47,645 bases of DNA. It comes from Bacillota bacterium. Its GTDB lineage: Bacteria > Bacillota > Sulfobacillia > JAJZYS01 > JAJYTV01. Where the stretch lies: assembly GCA_021793645.1 (NCBI GenBank), contig JAJYSJ010000017.1:1-47645 (forward strand), in the 5' to 3' direction. Position 1 is the stretch's first letter. Each line of letters opens with the position of its first letter. Shown here in pieces: positions 15,502 through 24,418 of this stretch. A program made the translations under genes and the position numbers. Under the pieces are notes generated by a model. That model made no database searches and had not been told where the DNA came from. It worked only from the letters and a program-made list of their open reading frames with translations.

Positions 15502-16359
15502 ATGAACGTACTGCACCCCGGCCGGCCCCTCTGGGCGCAGGAGGAGCCGCGGGATCCAAGGGTCGAGCTCTTCGGCGTACCGTTCGACGGCACCGCCTCC
15601 TTCAACGCGGGATCGCGCGAGGGGCCGCTCGCCATCCGCTCTGCGACGCACGGCCTGGAGGACTTCTCGCCGGCGCTCTCGGCCTCGGTGCCGGAGGGCT
15701 TTTTGCACGATCTCGGCGACCTCGACCTGCCCTTCGGCAACCCCGCGGAAGTCCTGCGCCGCACAGAGGCTGCGACAGAGGAGATCCTCTCCCGTGGACG
15801 CCTGCCCTTCCTCCTGGGCGGGGAGCACCTCGTCACGCTCGGCGCGCTGCGGGCGCATAGGCGACACGGGGACTTTGTCCTCGTGCAGCTCGACGCCCAC
15901 GCGGACCTGCGCCACGACTACCTCGGGGAGTCCCTCAGCCACGCCGCCGTCCTCTACCACGCCCAGGAGCTCCTCGGCCGGGAGAACGTGCTGCAGCTGG
16001 GCATTCGCTCCGCGAGCGCGGAGGAGTGGGGACGGCGCGGCTTCTTGCGCACTGACCTCTCCGAGAAGAGCGTGAGCGAGGCGATCCGGGAGATCGGGGG
16101 GCGCCCTATCTACCTCACGCTCGACATCGACGTCGCGGACCCGGCCTTTGCGCCGGGGACCGGCACGCCGGAGCCGGGCGGCGCGACGTCCCAGGAGCTC
16201 CTCGCGGCGGTCCGCGGGCTCTCTGCCCTGCCGCTCGTCGGGGCCGATATCGTCGAGGTGCTGCCGAGCCGCGATCCGGCAGGCATCACTGCGCTGCTTG
16301 CCGCGAAGTGTCTAAGGGAGATGCTCATAGCACAGGGGGTGCGCCAGGGTGGGCTTTAG
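15502..16359 (+). CDS. speB: Agmatinase / ureohydrolase
   Basis: Mn-dependent ureohydrolase that releases urea from agmatine (or N1-aminopropylagmatine). Of 285 residues, the metal-binding blocks are GGEH (106-109), DAHAD (131-135) and DIDVADPAFAPG (208-219). SHAAV and GTPEPGG complete the family pattern. The start ATG abuts the speE stop with no gap, and the stop is overlapped by argS. In this operon it would turn arginine-derived agmatine into putrescine, or aminopropylagmatine into spermidine. Confidence 0.93.
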   Translation: MNVLHPGRPLWAQEEPRDPRVELFGVPFDGTASFNAGSREGPLAIRSATHGLEDFSPALSASVPEGFLHDLGDLDLPFGNPAEVLRRTEAATEEILSRGRLPFLLGGEHLVTLGALRAHRRHGDFVLVQLDAHADLRHDYLGESLSHAAVLYHAQELLGRENVLQLGIRSASAEEWGRRGFLRTDLSEKSVSEAIREIGGRPIYLTLDIDVADPAFAPGTGTPEPGGATSQELLAAVRGLSALPLVGADIVEVLPSRDPAGITALLAAKCLREMLIAQGVRQGGL

Positions 16360-18079
16360 CAGGCAGCTGCGAGGGATCGTAGAGGACGCCTATCTGCGGG
16401 CCGCCCAGGCCGAGGGCTGGCCGGGGGATGTACCTGATTTCGCCGTCGAGCGGCCGAAGGACACGAAGATGGGCGACTACGCGACGAACATCGCGCTGCA
16501 GCTGGCGCGCCCCCTGCGCCGTGCGCCGCGGGAGATCGCAGAGCGCATCGCCCGCGAGGTGCACGCGGGGGAGGACTTTGCCGCCGCCGAGGTGGCAGGC
16601 GCAGGTTTTCTCAACTTCCGTCTCACACAGGCCTTCCACCCGCGCGTCCTGCGCGCCTTGCAAGATGATTCGCAGGGCTATCTTTCGAGCGACATCGGGC
16701 GCGGCGAGCGCATCCTCCTCGAATTCGTCTCGGCAAACCCCACGGGTCCTCTGAACGTCGTCTCTGCCCGGGCGGCGGCGATCGGGGACACGCTCGGGAG
16801 ACTCCTACGCCTGACGGGCCACGACGTCTTCACGGAGTACTACGTGAACGACGCGGGGTCGCAGGTCGAGAACCTCGCGCTCTCGATCCTCGTGCGCATG
16901 CAGCTGCCGGACGGGCCGAGGGAGATCCCCGAGGACGGCTACCATGGCGAGTACGTCACGGACCTCGCCAAACGCTTCCTCTCGCAGGCGCCGGCGAGCT
17001 TTTCCGGGATGCCGCGAGAGCAGCAGCTCTCGCTCCTCAAGGCCTGGGCGATGGCTGAGATGGGCCGCATGCGCCTTGCGACCCTCGAAGCCTACGGCGT
17101 GCACTTCGACAACTTCTTTTCCGAGGCCGCGTTTCGGGCCGGCAGCGGCGTCGATGAACTGCTGGCCACCTTCGCGCGGCGCGGGATCCTCGAGGGGAAG
17201 GAGCCCGGCCGCAGGGTCGTCGAGCGGGCGCAGCACGAGGAAGCGACACCGCTCCTCGAGGACCGCGACGGTGCGCGCTGGCTGAGGACCGACCTTCTGG
17301 GAGACGACAAGGACAGGGTGCTCGTGCGCTCGGACGGAAACTACACCTACTTCCTGCCGGACATCGGCTACCACCACGGCAAGTACCAGCGCGGCTACAC
17401 GCGCGTGATCGACCTCCTGGGCCCCGACCACCACGGCTACGTCGCGCGCATGCGCGCCGCGATGGAGGCCCTGGGGCACGCCCCCGAGAGCTTTCAGGTG
17501 CTGATCGTGCAGTGGGTGCGCTTTCTGCGCGGCGGCGTGCCCCAGAACATGAGCAAGCGCGCCGGCGAGACCGTGACGATCGACGAGCTGCTCTCGGATG
17601 TCGGCAGGGACGCCGCGCGCTACTTCTTCCTGATGCGCTCCCACGACACGCCGCTCGACTTCGACCTGCAGCTCGCGCAGGAGGAGTCGAGCGAGAACCC
17701 CGTCTACTACGTGCAGTACGCCCACGCGCGCATCGCCTCGATCCGCCGTCAGGCGGGCGGAGAAGCCTCGACTGGAGGCTTATCCAGCGCGGGTGCGGAC
17801 TTCTCGCTCCTCACGGCGCCCGAGGAAGTGGAGATCCTGCGCCGCCTGGGCCAGCTGCCGGAGGAGATCGAGGAGGCGGCGAAGGCGCTAGAGCCCCACC
17901 GCATCCCGCGGATGGCGACGGAACTCGCGCAGGCCTTCCACTCCTTCTACAACAAGAACCGCGTGCTCGGCGTGGACCCGCCGCTCTCTGCGGCGCGCCT
18001 CGCCCTCGCAGTGGCGGTGGGCAGCGCGCTGCGCGAACTGCTGACGCTCCTCGGGGTTGACGCGCCGGATCGCATGTAG
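16349..18079 (+). CDS. argS: Arginyl-tRNA synthetase
   Basis: Class I synthetase charging tRNA-Arg; 576 residues, normal for bacterial ArgRS. The N-terminal Add-1 domain (residues 1-95) ends in GAGFLNFRL; the Rossmann core has SANPTGPLNVVSARAAAIGD (128-147) and EYYVNDAGSQVENLALS; the KMSKS equivalent is MSKRAG (401-406). The C-terminal anticodon-binding helices include YYVQYAHARIASIRR and the ending HSFYNKNRVL. The HIGH position reads NVVS instead of HVGH, see findings. GTG 16349 overlaps speB by 11 bases, so polyamine and arginine-charging genes are coupled. Confidence 0.95.
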   Translation: MGFSRQLRGIVEDAYLRAAQAEGWPGDVPDFAVERPKDTKMGDYATNIALQLARPLRRAPREIAERIAREVHAGEDFAAAEVAGAGFLNFRLTQAFHPRVLRALQDDSQGYLSSDIGRGERILLEFVSANPTGPLNVVSARAAAIGDTLGRLLRLTGHDVFTEYYVNDAGSQVENLALSILVRMQLPDGPREIPEDGYHGEYVTDLAKRFLSQAPASFSGMPREQQLSLLKAWAMAEMGRMRLATLEAYGVHFDNFFSEAAFRAGSGVDELLATFARRGILEGKEPGRRVVERAQHEEATPLLEDRDGARWLRTDLLGDDKDRVLVRSDGNYTYFLPDIGYHHGKYQRGYTRVIDLLGPDHHGYVARMRAAMEALGHAPESFQVLIVQWVRFLRGGVPQNMSKRAGETVTIDELLSDVGRDAARYFFLMRSHDTPLDFDLQLAQEESSENPVYYVQYAHARIASIRRQAGGEASTGGLSSAGADFSLLTAPEEVEILRRLGQLPEEIEEAAKALEPHRIPRMATELAQAFHSFYNKNRVLGVDPPLSAARLALAVAVGSALRELLTLLGVDAPDRM

Positions 18080-18172: not shown

Positions 18173-18502
18173 ATGGACCAGACCTACGGCGTGCGCGAGC
18201 CGCTCGACGTCGCCTCTGAGCTCCTGCGCCAGAGTGCTACACCGATGATGGCCAGGGCGCTCCTCGAGGAGACGCTGAAGCTGCTCGGCAAGGACCCAAA
18301 GGACACGGCGCTGCTCGCGGAGCTGCAGACGGAGATCAGTCTCGACAACCGGTTCATTCCGGCCTCCCACGGTACGTGGGGGCTGAGGGAATGGGCGCCG
18401 AAGCCGAAACCGACTCGCGCGGGCAAGGTTGCGTTGGAGAAGAAGGCGAAGGCGGCTTCGGATGACGACGACGCCGGCGAAGCCTCGGAAGAATGGGATT
18501 GA
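18173..18502 (+). CDS. rpoE: RNA polymerase delta subunit
   Basis: Delta subunit of Bacillota RNA polymerase, which increases transcription specificity and recycling. Of 109 residues, ~1-78 form the HARE-HTH domain (ASELLRQSATPMMARALLEE, then the strand-turn FIPASHGTWGLREW). The C-terminal tail is Lys-rich and then acidic (DDDDAGEASEEWD), far shorter than the long acidic tail of B. subtilis delta. The start has GGGGGGA upstream. Its position between argS and pyrG is conserved in Bacilli and supports the call. The last codons overlap the -35 box of the pyrG promoter. Confidence 0.88.
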   Translation: MDQTYGVREPLDVASELLRQSATPMMARALLEETLKLLGKDPKDTALLAELQTEISLDNRFIPASHGTWGLREWAPKPKPTRAGKVALEKKAKAASDDDDAGEASEEWD

Positions 18503-18560
18503 CGATGGCCGCCTCGGCTCCGTAGAATCTCTACGGGCTTGGCGGCCCGCCCTTTTTATT
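18499..18560 (+). promoter_or_regulatory. pyrG promoter and GGGC-initiated attenuator leader
   Basis: TTGACG (18499-18504), an 18-bp spacer and TAGAAT (18523-18528) place the transcription start at G18535, giving a transcript beginning GGGCTTGG. It is followed at once by a small hairpin (GGCG 18541-18544 with CGCC 18548-18551, or GGGC with GCCC) and TTTTTATT (18553-18560). A transcript starting GGGC before a leader terminator is the arrangement used by B. subtilis pyrG, where low CTP causes G-slippage that blocks termination. Here the hairpin lies at the very 5' end, so the detailed mechanism may differ. Confidence 0.6.
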
Positions 18561-18595
18561 GCCCCTGGCCTTGCGAAGAAACGGGAGGGAATCGC

Positions 18596-20212
18596 GTGGC
18601 CAAGTTCATCTTCATCACGGGAGGCGTGGTCTCCGGCCTCGGCAAGGGGATTACCGCCGCATCGCTCGGACGGCTTCTCAAGGCGCGCGGCTACAGCGTC
18701 TCGGCCCAGAAGCTGGACCCGTACCTGAACGTCGACCCCGGCACGATGAGCCCGCTGCAGCACGGCGAGGTGTTCGTCACCGACGACGGCGCCGAGACGG
18801 ACCTCGACCTCGGGCACTACGAGCGGTTCATGGACGTATCGCTGAACGCCGTCTCGAACCAGACGACCGGCAAGATCTACGGCGCCGTGATCCAGAAGGA
18901 GCGGCGCGGGGATTATCTCGGCGGGACGGTGCAGGTCATCCCGCACGTCACGAACGAGATCAAGGAGACGATCCATCGGGCGCAAGAGGCCGCGAACACG
19001 GACATCCTGATCTGCGAGATCGGGGGGACCGTGGGCGACATCGAGTCGCTGCCGTTCCTCGAGGCAATCCGTCAATTCAAGTACGACGTCGGCCGCCAGG
19101 ACGCACTCTATATCCATGTGACGCTCGTGCCGTATCTCGAGGCCTCTGGCGAGGCGAAGACGAAGCCGACGCAGCACTCCGTGAAGGAGCTGCGCTCGAT
19201 CGGGATCACGCCGGACGTGATCGTGGCGCGCAGCCGCCACCCGCTCTCCAAGGACCTGCTCGACAAGATCGCGCTCTTTTGCGACGTGGAGCGCAGCGCA
19301 GTCATACCGAACCCGGACGCAGAATCCACGATCTATGCCGCTCCACTAATTCTTGAAAAGGCCGGCCTCGGCCGCATCGTCGAGGAGAAGATGGGGCTCT
19401 TCCCGAAGGAGCCGGACCTGCGGGACTGGGAAGCGCTCGTCCGCCACAAGGAGAGCGCCCACCGCACCGCGCGCATCGCACTTGTCGGCAAGTACGTCGC
19501 GCTGCACGACGCGTACCTCTCGGTCGCGGAGGCTCTCTATCACGCCGGGATCCACCACGAGGCCCAGATCGACATCGACTGGATCGACTCCGAGCGCCTG
19601 GAGGACCAGGACGCGATAGACGTCCTGCGCGACGCGGACGGCATCCTCGTGCCGGGCGGCTTCGGCTCGCGCGGCATCGAGGGGAAGATCCAGGCGATAC
19701 GCTACGCCCGCGAGCACGAGGTGCCGTTCTTGGGCCTGTGCCTCGGGATGCAGTCGGCGGTGATCGAGGTGGCGCGCGACGTGCTCGGAAGGGAGCACGC
19801 GAACACGACGGAGATCGACGTCGACACGCCGGACCCCGTGATCGACCTGATGGCGGAGCAGACCGACATCGAGGACAAGGGCGGCACGATGCGCCTGGGG
19901 GCGTACCCCTGCGCGATCTCCCCAGGGACGCTTGCGGCCCGCGCCTACGGGGAGGAGCTCGTCTACGAGCGCCACCGCCACCGCTTCGAAGTCAACAACG
20001 CCTACCGCGAGGCACTGGAAGAGTGCGGGCTCATCGCGTCGGGCAAGAGCCCGGACGGCAAGCTCGTCGAGATGATGGAGCTGCGTGATCACCCCTGGTT
20101 CCTCGGCACCCAGTTCCACCCGGAGCTGCGCTCGCGGCCGAACCGGCCGCACCCGCTCTTCCGCGACTTCATCGGCGCCGCCCTGCGCAGGCGCGAGGGC
20201 ATGCCTTCATAG
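18596..20212 (+). CDS. pyrG: CTP synthase
   Basis: Makes CTP from UTP, ATP and glutamine. The 538-residue protein has the N-terminal synthase domain (P-loop [10 protein letters not shown] at residues 9-18, then [15 protein letters not shown] and [15 protein letters not shown]) and the C-terminal class I amidotransferase domain ([13 protein letters not shown], nucleophile Cys382 in LGLCLGMQ, and [10 protein letters not shown] with the His/Glu pair near residue 508). GTG 18596 follows GGGAGGGA; the frame open to 18539 lies in the leader. It has its own promoter and a strong terminator downstream, so it is a single-gene unit with feedback on CTP likely. Confidence 0.96.
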
Positions 20213-20276: not shown

Positions 20277-20914
20277 CTATGGGCCGTTTGTCATTCCGAA
20301 CGCGCCTCCGCCATATCCTGCGTAGCATGTACGAACTGGTGTGTTTGTCCTCTGCCTAGGGCCGGATGGCAAGGCAGCGACCAAAGTCCAGCGGTTACAG
20401 GAAGATGAAGGTTTGCGAAAAACCACGCAAACGCGAAAGAAGCTGGACTGCTTGTCGTCTAGAGGAATGCGGAGCAAAGCGCCCTCGGGTGCCACGACCG
20501 CCCGCGGCAAGGATCCGGCGATCTGGTGGTGCGCCTTTCGGCACATCTCACGGAACGCTTAGGCCCCTGACCGCCGTGCAAGGCGGATCGTAGCAGGAAG
20601 TCTTGGGGACAGCGGCGAATCGCCTCCTGTTGCCAAGGAAGACCTGCGCGTCCAGACCAACCCGTATGGAAGCAATCCAGGGGGGTCTGGAATTCGCCGC
20701 CCCTGTCTTCCGACGACTGGTGTTTCGCGGTTCCTTTGCCTTCGCAGGTACCCGTCGGGATTTAGGCCACATACAGGATCTTCATCTCGAACCATTATGG
20801 TAAGCGGGGAGACGCGGAGGACCAAATCGTCGTGGGAAAGGGGGGATGCGCGGGGCAGAGGGCAGCCTCGGGCTTCTTCGTTTCCTTGTATCCAAGACAG
20901 AAGGAGGAGAATGC
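20277..20914. other. 638-bp region upstream of the first S-layer gene
   Basis: No credible gene: frames of 60-90 codons on both strands have poor composition and no ribosome sites. Only the strong Shine-Dalgarno AAGGAGGAGA (20901-20910) of the S-layer gene was identified. A long untranslated leader for a highly expressed S-layer mRNA is possible, but no convincing -35/-10 pair was recognised. Confidence 0.3.
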
Positions 20915-23900
20915 ATGCACAAGTTCCGTACGGTCCTGTCGGTCGTTGCTACGACCGCCATGGTCCTCGGGACGATGGGTGTCGCGGCTGCGGCCGGCAC
21001 GACGTCAAGCAATGAGACGCGCGCCGACTTCATCATGCAGCTGGACCAGCAGCTGAGCATCAGCTCAGTCAACCCGTCGACGCCAACCTTCACTGACGTG
21101 CCCGCTTCGAGCCCGTACTACGGGTACATCGAGGCCGCATACCAGAAGGGCTACATCAGCGGTTTCACGGCTACCACATTCGGTCCGAACCAGCCGATCA
21201 CCCGCGCCCAGGCCGCCAAGGTCCTGGTCGAGGCGTACGAGGGCGGGAACTACTCCCCGACCGCGACGTCGACCAAGTTCACGGACAACTCCATGATCCC
21301 GACGGCCCTCGTCGGCTTCGTGGCTGAGGCCCAGACGCTTGGGCTGATGAACGGCTTCGTGAACGGCAGCTTCGGCCCGAACGCCGACCTCAGCACCGCG
21401 CAGGAGACGCACCTGATCTCCCAGCTCAAGGCTGTCCAGGCCGCGGCCGGGTTCAAGATCACGGCTTCTGCAAGTGATGTGGGCCCCGGCGAGGTCGTTA
21501 CCCTGAACTCAAGCCTGCCGAACGCGACCTACGCGGTTACGACAGCGCCGAGCGGCGCAGCGTACGTCCAGTCCGGCAACCTGTTCAGCGCAACGACTCC
21601 TGGCAACTACGTGATCACCGGCACGCTCAACGGCGCCACTGCGACGGCTGCAGTGACCGTCTACGGTGCTCCGGCTTCCGTTGTCCTCACGGGCGGTAAG
21701 ACCATCGTCGCTGACGGCAGCTCGACGGCGGGTGCCGGCGCAGAGGACACCATCACGGCTACCGTTCAGGACGCGAATGGCAACACCGTCGCCGACTTCA
21801 ACGGCAGCGTGACGCTCTACGACACGGGCAACATGTCGCAGATCCTCGAGAGCAACAACAGCCTCAACACCGCCTACAGCGTCAACGCCAACAACGGCGT
21901 CGCGACGTTCAGTGTTGAGTCCACCGGCCTCACGGCGGGCCTCAGCGACACGCTCACCGCGACCGCCACGACCGTCGGCGGCTCCGCCGTCGGGCAGGGC
22001 ACCTTCACGGTGACCAGTGTTGCGCCGACGGCTTCGGCCCTGTCGCTCAGCGCGACTCCCGCGTCGATCGACGTGAACGCTCTCAACAGCTCCACCAGCC
22101 TCTCGGTCGCCGTGACCGACGCTGCTGGCAACGAGTTCCTCGGTACGCCGGAGCAGGTCACCCTGTCCCTGAGCGGCCCGGGCTCGTTCACTGCCCTTTC
22201 CGGCAGCAGCACCACGCCTACCACCACCTACACCCTCTACGTTGACGGCAGCCAGTCGGTAACCGTTTACGGCGTTGAGGGTCAGACGGGGACGATCAGC
22301 GTCACCGCGTCCGCAAGCGGCATCACATCGGGAAGCGTCAAGATCCCGGCCGTCGTCAGTGGCATCCCGGCCAAGCTGGGCGTCACCTCCAACACCGGGA
22401 CGACAACGACTGGCGTGCCCTACACGGCTTACACCGTGCAGCTTGAGGACGCCGCAGGCAACCCGATCACGTCCGGCTCGGGCGCGAACGACGCTATCAG
22501 CATCAGCGACAACGAGGGTACCCTCGGTGGCGGCCTGACGTACTGGAGTGTCGCCAACGGCGCGCCCAATACGTCGCTAGGCTCCACACCCATCAACGGC
22601 ACGCTGTCCAACGGCTCGTACTCCTTCGCGGTCGAGACGAACGGCACCACATCTGCGGCGCCGACCATCACGATCGACGACACGACCGAGTCGTTTAGCA
22701 CCACTGTCACCTACAACTACCAGGTCGGCGCTGGCACGCAAGCCCTCTTCGAGGAGGGTGGGAACACCGACCTGTCGCTGTTCAACACAAGTACCCCGTC
22801 CCTCTACGCCGAGGCGGGCACCGCCGTGACCCTCTCTGCGGAGCTCACCGACGCAGCCGGCAACGTCATCTCCAAGGCCGGTCAGACGATCGACTTCGCG
22901 TTCATCAGTAACACCGGCAGTGCGTCGATGCCGAACGGTTCGAGCATCGGCGTCGACTACGCTGTTCCCACGAACGCCCAAGGCGTGGCTTCTGTAACCG
23001 TCAACACTGGCAACGCCGGCACCTTCCAGCTTGAAGCTGGATTGCCTGGCGGCACGTTCACTGGTGGCCCGACCGTTACGGTCGCGCCTGCGGCGAATGC
23101 TGCTACCGGCGCTCAGGTCGGGTGGACCACTCCGACCGGCACGGTACCCTCTAGCATCCAGAGCGGGGCTTCGGGCACCTTCTCTGGCCAGTTGCAGAAT
23201 CCGGTTAGTGTGGCCACACCCCAGGCTGACCAGCTCCTCGTCACAAGCAGCAACGGGAGCATCCTCGGGTTCCCGACCACCAGTGGTTGGGTCTCGTACG
23301 GCAGCGCGTGGATCGTGACGGCAACTGCCAGCGGCGCCTTCTCGATCCCTGTGAAGGGCGGCCTCGCCGGCACGGCCAGCGTGACCATTACCGACCTCAG
23401 CAACCTGAACGTCTCGCCGGTCACGGAGACCCTCTCCGTCACAGCCGGTACCACCGCGAGTGGCGCGACGTTCTACTACAACGGCCTGCCGATCAACCCC
23501 GCGAATCCGCTTCCAGTGACGGCCAATGTGCCGGTGCTGGTGCAGGTGGAGTCGACGGACGCGGGCGGCAACGCCATCACGCTCAACGCCAACACGACCT
23601 ACAACATCGCTGACAGCAACGGCGGCTACTTCCTGATCGACAACAACGGCACCGCGGGTGCGCCGACAGGAACTGTGACGATTGACGCAGGGCAGTTCGA
23701 AGCCAATGTGTTCTACGTCAACTCGAACCCGCCCAGCAGCGGCGTGACTAGCGGGTTTACCGCAGGTGTCCAGCCGCTGGCCAACGCTGCGGTTACCACG
23801 GTCGCCACGACCGCGACCGGTAGCGTGAACGGCTCCACGCCGATCACGTTCACCGTAAAGGACAGTAGTGGAGCGGTGGTATCTGGCGCGACGGTTGTGC

Positions 23901-24418
23901 TGAACGCCATCTACCAGTCGGGGACGGGGTCATTCGTGATCGCGACCTCGCCGACGGGGACTGGAACCCCCAGCGTGACCGCGACGAGCAACAGTAGTGG
24001 TCAGGTCACTGTCTACCTCGCTAACTCGACAGTGGGCGCCACAGGTGTCGTAGAGGCTCTGGTATCTGGTACGGCCAACGGCACGATCAGTGGCGTCACT
24101 ACGCTAACGGTTGTGGGCCTTGGCACAGTGACCGTTGGAACGTTCACGCAGGGTGGGTCGTCAGGCGCGTACACGTACACGTCGACAGTTACCCTGGCGG
24201 ACGCCAACGGGAACCCCATCACCGGCGCCACTGCAGCGGACTTCGCTGCGAGCGACGCGGGTGCCGCGAACCTTACTGTCGGGACGGTCACTGCCACGGC
24301 TACGCCGGGCCAGTACACCCTGGTGCTTGACAGCACGAGCACCACGGCGCTGACGGACGCGGCAACCATCACGGTGACGATCAACTCGGTCGCCAAGACC
24401 GGGAGCAACACGCTGTAA
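20915..24418 (+). CDS. S-layer protein with SLH domains and Ig-like repeats
   Basis: An exported cell-surface protein of 1,167 residues. The signal peptide (MHKFRTVLSVVATTAMVLGT) is probably cut near residue 27. SLH domains at about 59-108 (YYGYIEAAYQKGYISGF, then FGPNQPITRAQAAKVLVEAY) and 122-172 (ALVGFVAEAQTLGLMNGF) should bind the secondary cell-wall polymer; residues 33-50 (NETRADFIMQLDQQLSI) are only the second half of an SLH unit. The remaining ~985 residues are Ser/Thr/Gly/Ala-rich with repeated bacterial Ig-like beta-sandwich strands (VQDANGNTV, VTDAAGNE, LEDAAGNPI, LTDAAGNVI, LADANGNPI). The high Thr/Ser content offers many O-glycosylation sites. ATG 20915 has a strong Shine-Dalgarno. 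Confidence 0.92.
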   Translation: MHKFRTVLSVVATTAMVLGTMGVAAAAGTTSSNETRADFIMQLDQQLSISSVNPSTPTFTDVPASSPYYGYIEAAYQKGYISGFTATTFGPNQPITRAQAAKVLVEAYEGGNYSPTATSTKFTDNSMIPTALVGFVAEAQTLGLMNGFVNGSFGPNADLSTAQETHLISQLKAVQAAAGFKITASASDVGPGEVVTLNSSLPNATYAVTTAPSGAAYVQSGNLFSATTPGNYVITGTLNGATATAAVTVYGAPASVVLTGGKTIVADGSSTAGAGAEDTITATVQDANGNTVADFNGSVTLYDTGNMSQILESNNSLNTAYSVNANNGVATFSVESTGLTAGLSDTLTATATTVGGSAVGQGTFTVTSVAPTASALSLSATPASIDVNALNSSTSLSVAVTDAAGNEFLGTPEQVTLSLSGPGSFTALSGSSTTPTTTYTLYVDGSQSVTVYGVEGQTGTISVTASASGITSGSVKIPAVVSGIPAKLGVTSNTGTTTTGVPYTAYTVQLEDAAGNPITSGSGANDAISISDNEGTLGGGLTYWSVANGAPNTSLGSTPINGTLSNGSYSFAVETNGTTSAAPTITIDDTTESFSTTVTYNYQVGAGTQALFEEGGNTDLSLFNTSTPSLYAEAGTAVTLSAELTDAAGNVISKAGQTIDFAFISNTGSASMPNGSSIGVDYAVPTNAQGVASVTVNTGNAGTFQLEAGLPGGTFTGGPTVTVAPAANAATGAQVGWTTPTGTVPSSIQSGASGTFSGQLQNPVSVATPQADQLLVTSSNGSILGFPTTSGWVSYGSAWIVTATASGAFSIPVKGGLAGTASVTITDLSNLNVSPVTETLSVTAGTTASGATFYYNGLPINPANPLPVTANVPVLVQVESTDAGGNAITLNANTTYNIADSNGGYFLIDNNGTAGAPTGTVTIDAGQFEANVFYVNSNPPSSGVTSGFTAGVQPLANAAVTTVATTATGSVNGSTPITFTVKDSSGAVVSGATVVLNAIYQSGTGSFVIATSPTGTGTPSVTATSNSSGQVTVYLANSTVGATGVVEALVSGTANGTISGVTTLTVVGLGTVTVGTFTQGGSSGAYTYTSTVTLADANGNPITGATAADFAASDAGAANLTVGTVTATATPGQYTLVLDSTSTTALTDAATITVTINSVAKTGSNTL

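Follow-up and report, generated by a model that had tools for sequence, protein, structure and literature searches.

The region between rpoE and pyrG in the window, i.e., the whole stretch of 47,645 nucleotides of Bacillota DNA analysed here, is probably an intrinsic terminator of rpoE in which the promoter of pyrG is embedded, with a GGG slip-site start of the Bacillota type, both the termination and the start being predicted. A transcript reading through from rpoE would form the whole of a long hairpin that reaches the U-tract, where transcription would stop. A polymerase starting at 18535 would enter this hairpin halfway and produce a transcript without the 5' arm, which, to judge from folding, would form only a weak and badly spaced hairpin and would mostly escape into pyrG. 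The GGGC start may give rise to slippage when CTP is low, but folding lends no support to a disruption of the terminator by this slippage. The host genome assembly comprises 3.4 Mb in 94 contigs, and the features of the locus are given in Table 1.

Table 1. Features of the argS-rpoE-pyrG locus, with positions counted along the window.
Feature	Position	Strand	Basis or remark
argS	16349-18079	+	precedes rpoE
rpoE, RNA polymerase delta subunit	18173-18502	+	TIGR04567, PF05066; directly upstream of pyrG
pyrG, CTP synthase (GTG start)	18596-20212	+	TIGR00337, PF06418
-35 hexamer, TTGACG	18499-18504	+	conserved in G000, G002, G005, G006 and G009
-10 hexamer, TAGAAT	18523-18528	+	18-nt spacer to the -35
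GGGC, predicted start (+1 = 18535), possible G-slippage site	18535-18538	+	distance from the -10; conservation
Short hairpin of the +1 transcript, GGGCU:GGCCC, 5 bp, -8.3 kcal/mol	18535-18548	+	folding, shuffles
Long read-through hairpin, likely rpoE terminator stem	18495-18552	+	-33.1 kcal/mol, z -4.0
T-run of five T (U-tract), +19 to +23	18553-18557	+	sequence; followed by ATTGCCCC
Shine-Dalgarno GGGAGGG, partly complementary to CCCGCCC at 18546-18552	18583-18589	+	sequence

The genes argS, rpoE and pyrG all lie on the + strand, and a gap of 93 bases separates rpoE from pyrG, the real start of which is the GTG at 18596 rather than the start of a longer open reading frame at 18539; the product matches CTP synthase. 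Directly upstream of pyrG, a promoter of the sigma-A type, TTGACG-N18-TAGAAT (18499-18528), presents 10 of 12 matches, and its -35 hexamer encloses the TGA (18500-18502) with which rpoE ends. Six nucleotides lie between TAGAAT and GGGC, the first G of which is the predicted start, 61 bases 5' of pyrG; this agrees with the initial annotation, in which the promoter elements place the first transcribed base at this GGGC. Further along the window, a 1190-aa open reading frame (20846-24418) resembles a surface protein by eye, with an S-layer-like N-terminus and repeated Ig-like stretches, and no NCBIfam match was found for it.

According to two citing papers, the pyrG leader of B. subtilis is controlled by CTP-sensitive reiterative transcription attenuation (PMC4403831; PMC4448216). 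The likeness of the window's GGGC start to that of this leader, proposed in the initial annotation, is borne out by the comparison of genomes, given that the leaders of Bacillales also start with GGGC and have a distinct terminator further on, the 5' strand of which is GCUCCCUU-like. In the order of the window, the pattern TTGAC-N17-20-TAGAAT-N4-9-GGGC was found in 7 of 15 genomes, with a single match in each, always 5' of pyrG, and the reversed control of this pattern found no match in the same 15 genomes. When GGGC is not required, the promoter pattern occurs some 80 times in these genomes, so that none of the sites away from pyrG has a GGGC 3' of it. The GGGC at the predicted start is kept in three families of the order, that of the window among them. 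For the class as a whole, pyrG upstream regions were collected and only those with a recognisable promoter were counted (52), of which 27, from 13 of the 25 families, start with GGG(G)C, against an expectation of 5.0 ± 2.0 from shuffled leaders; with one genome per family, 13 such starts were observed, compared with 2.7 in the shuffled leaders. On the grounds of this conservation, the GGGC start at pyrG is a real signal, in excess of chance, and G-slippage at low CTP has likely been retained at the pyrG of the window.

Other arrangements were also observed among the pyrG leaders of the relatives. In one leader of G016 (L028) and in those of G084, G086 and G087 (family f44), the pyrG promoter is followed by a terminator-like hairpin and there is no GGGC at the start, which suggests another kind of pyrG control in these lineages. 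In two further contigs (G090:C50 and G037:C61), the distance from the GGGC of the pyrG promoter to the start codon is only some 10-20 nt, and the mRNA subject to any slippage would thus have almost no leader. Within the family of the window, pyrG was not seen in G001, G003, G004 and G007, two of several such genomes being 97-99% complete, and the contigs G006:C146 and G009:C83 stop at about residue 318 of pyrG; the missing or broken genes could either be genuine or stem from an assembly fault common to these genomes. A paralogue resembling the C-terminal part of CTP synthase (L117, at G000:C28:65921-66622) has a TAG and an in-frame TGA (PLTGT*GGFQH), the latter standing where the glutaminase cysteine would be, and the NCBIfam family of its kind, NF004836, is named as a "(seleno)protein". 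Paralogues in G020, G102, G103 and G127 also have one TGA each.

The embedding of the promoter in a terminator rests on the long hairpin, which was matched in stability by none of 200 shuffles. Its stem pairs GGG (18495-18497) with CCC (18550-18552), CG with CG, GGCCGCC (18507-18513) with GGCGGCC (18541-18547) and CCGTAGA (18520-18526) with TCTACGG (18530-18536), which leaves the pyrG -10 at the tip and the promoter, from -35 to +1, inside the hairpin. Alignment of the leaders of the relatives supports the conservation of GGGC that the initial annotation had named as a check, but the structure conserved with it is this larger read-through hairpin, which that annotation had missed. In five leaders of the family, the hairpin has energies of -33.1 (window), -35.9, -42.7, -43.2 and -31.2 kcal/mol, with z of -4.0 (window), -3.7, -6.0, -4.8 and -2.7, respectively. 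The intrinsic-terminator feature is thus present after rpoE, as a stable hairpin running directly into five T, and the search of the rpoE-pyrG gap yielded no second site resembling a terminator.

The position of the stem relative to the U-tract varies within the family. In G000, G006, G009 and G006b, the long stem can reach right up to the U-tract (spacer of 0-1, and 0 in the window). For G002 and G005, the spacer scan gave a most stable stem that stops 5 nt before the U-tract, such that termination could be weak in these two genomes. In the G006b leader, which represents a single contig end, both promoter hexamers have decayed and the hairpin and T-run are kept. The ATTGCCCC that follows the T-run (18558-18565) is conserved in five of the six aligned leaders and lost in G006b, the alignment being made up of closely related, near-identical sequences with almost no informative pairs; its conservation together with the promoter, and its loss where the promoter has decayed, suggest some function in the transcript of pyrG itself.

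The palindrome formed by the innermost arms, CCGTAGA-N-TCTACGG, might be read instead as an operator for a DNA-binding regulator, given that its perfect 7-bp arms overlap the -10 in the window. This is scarcely probable, as the arms are 2, 3 or 4 nt apart among the relatives, a variation more in keeping with an RNA hairpin than with a rigid operator, and the repeat runs on into flanking arms that are typical of a terminator.

The transcript that begins at +1 contains only the 3' part of the long hairpin, the full form of which can arise only in transcripts arriving from the upstream rpoE. The initial annotation had located a hairpin and U-tract at about +7 to +26; the hairpin in fact occupies +1 to +14 and is followed by GCCC and then by five U at +19 to +23. 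Its stability is that of shuffled sequence, with 94 of 200 shuffles folding as well (z 0.06), and the corresponding hairpins of G002 and G005 are not above their shuffles either (z -0.25 and -1.0). The T-run is present, and the 4-nt GCCC spacer separates it from the base of the hairpin. In a survey of about 614 kb of the host genome, covered in stretches, strong hairpins before T-runs favoured spacers of 0-2 over those of 3-7 (29 versus 18 sites at -15 kcal/mol).

The effect of slippage on these structures was addressed through folding with n extra Gs at the 5' end. In five leaders of the family, the extra Gs pair with the CCC at +16 to +18, and a stem that touches the U-tract becomes more probable, from 0-0.17 at n = 0 to 1.0 at n of at least 4. 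Rather than disrupting the terminator, as had been proposed, the extra Gs should, by this prediction, lengthen the stem until it meets the U-tract. In nearly all of the Bacillales leaders, used as a control, equilibrium folding also leaves the terminator intact, whatever n, from which it follows that the known mechanism has to operate ahead of the synthesis of the 3' strand. As most of these leaders show no antitermination by equilibrium folding, this approach cannot exclude a kinetic effect, and it was dropped as an antitermination test, given its failure on most leaders of the known type. It was replaced by the folding of transcripts truncated 5' of the terminator's 3' strand. In such 3'-cut transcripts, poly-G captures the 5' strand of the terminator in 29 Bacillales leaders, with pairing that climbs from about 0.3 to 0.8 with increasing n. 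The block next to the G-run of the window is only CUU, with an MFE of 0 kcal/mol and no stable pairing with poly-G. In the relatives, capture at n = 8 reaches 0.98 with the CCCCU of G002, 0.97 with the CCCU of G005, G006 and G009, and 0.97 with the CUCCUCU of G012; in G025, CCGCCCU adjoins the G-run.

Given these data, the ultra-short CTP attenuator of the initial annotation stands in part only. Under compact CTP-sensing attenuation, the +1 transcript would end at the U-tract when CTP is high, and the extra Gs added when CTP is low would fold back on the neighbouring pyrimidines before the polymerase has reached the 3' arm, which would allow read-through. The conserved GGGC start and the early capture of the G-run by the pyrimidines that follow GGG in G002, G005, G006, G009 and G012 are consistent with this reading, as are the hairpins of G012, G011 and G025, which begin at the G-run or within a few bases of it and exceed their shuffles (z -3.1, -3.0 and -2.5). 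In the window, however, there is only CUU to capture, the unslipped hairpin is weak and lies 4 nt off the U-tract, and the extra Gs end up in a stem that touches it, so that the reading is unlikely, albeit one to be kept in view. A compact attenuator is more credible in the relatives, where the three hairpins at the start are above shuffles, than in the window, and relatives from other families are the better candidates for it. For the order, it may be ventured, with considerable doubt, that the CTP sensor of pyrG has been compressed, with the slip site, the pyrimidine block and the terminator stem all within one hairpin from +1, and that in the family of the window rpoE transcripts end at this U-tract through the same 3' arm, which would unite terminator, promoter and CTP sensor in one sequence.

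Slippage might also act on translation, if the CCCGCCC pairs with the Shine-Dalgarno GGGAGGG in the unslipped mRNA and is taken up by the poly-G at low CTP, which would free the ribosome-binding site. With extra Gs, the mean unpaired probability of the Shine-Dalgarno does rise from 0.20 to 0.80 in G000 and from 0.35 to 0.84 in G002, but in G005, G006 and G009 it changes far less (from 0.22-0.34 to 0.34-0.37); the release is thus confined to genus g1 (G000 and G002) rather than common to the family, and this form of control is very unlikely. The stem rebuilt against the U-tract in all five leaders, on the other hand, would fit a reverse logic, in which the extra Gs replace the missing 5' GGG, restore the terminator and cause the slipped transcripts to be discarded. 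CTP synthase would then drop precisely when CTP is scarce, contrary to the physiology of the known system, and this reading is highly improbable. The rpoE terminator with its embedded pyrG promoter remains the preferred account of the element.

The pyrG leader of B. subtilis, for which Meng, Turnbough and Switzer reportedly described CTP-sensitive reiterative transcription attenuation in 2004, resembles that of the window in the promoter directly 5' of pyrG, the predicted GGGC start, the U-tract in the leader and the upstream rpoE. The window differs in that it has no separate downstream terminator with a pyrimidine-rich 5' strand: such a strand is absent 3' of its slip site and present in the 29 Bacillales leaders. 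Moreover, the hairpin of the window uses the start Gs themselves, and on folding, extra Gs lengthen its stem and do not compete with it. The PyrG_leader family of Rfam (RF02371) concerns the same gene and the same position, but the window does not match its covariance model at the gathering score, nor at E ≤ 5, and a Bacillus leader (L088) used as a positive control does. The window may slip like the pyrG of B. subtilis, but it is not filed as a member of the B. subtilis-type attenuator family. If its GGGC start is functional, CTP-sensing slippage at pyrG would extend to deep lineages of the Bacillota with leaders unlike those of Bacillus, which escape the Rfam model.

Finally, the element may be compared with terminators that overlap the promoter of the next gene, given that here too a hairpin and T-run follow rpoE and share the 93-bp gap with the pyrG promoter. 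In the layout of this family, the terminator and the promoter would occupy the same bases, such that the upstream transcript is stopped, while that of the embedded promoter, having only half of the hairpin, escapes. Unlike an ordinary overlap of terminator and promoter, the promoter of the window lies within the hairpin from -35 to +1, and the two signals thus share their bases.
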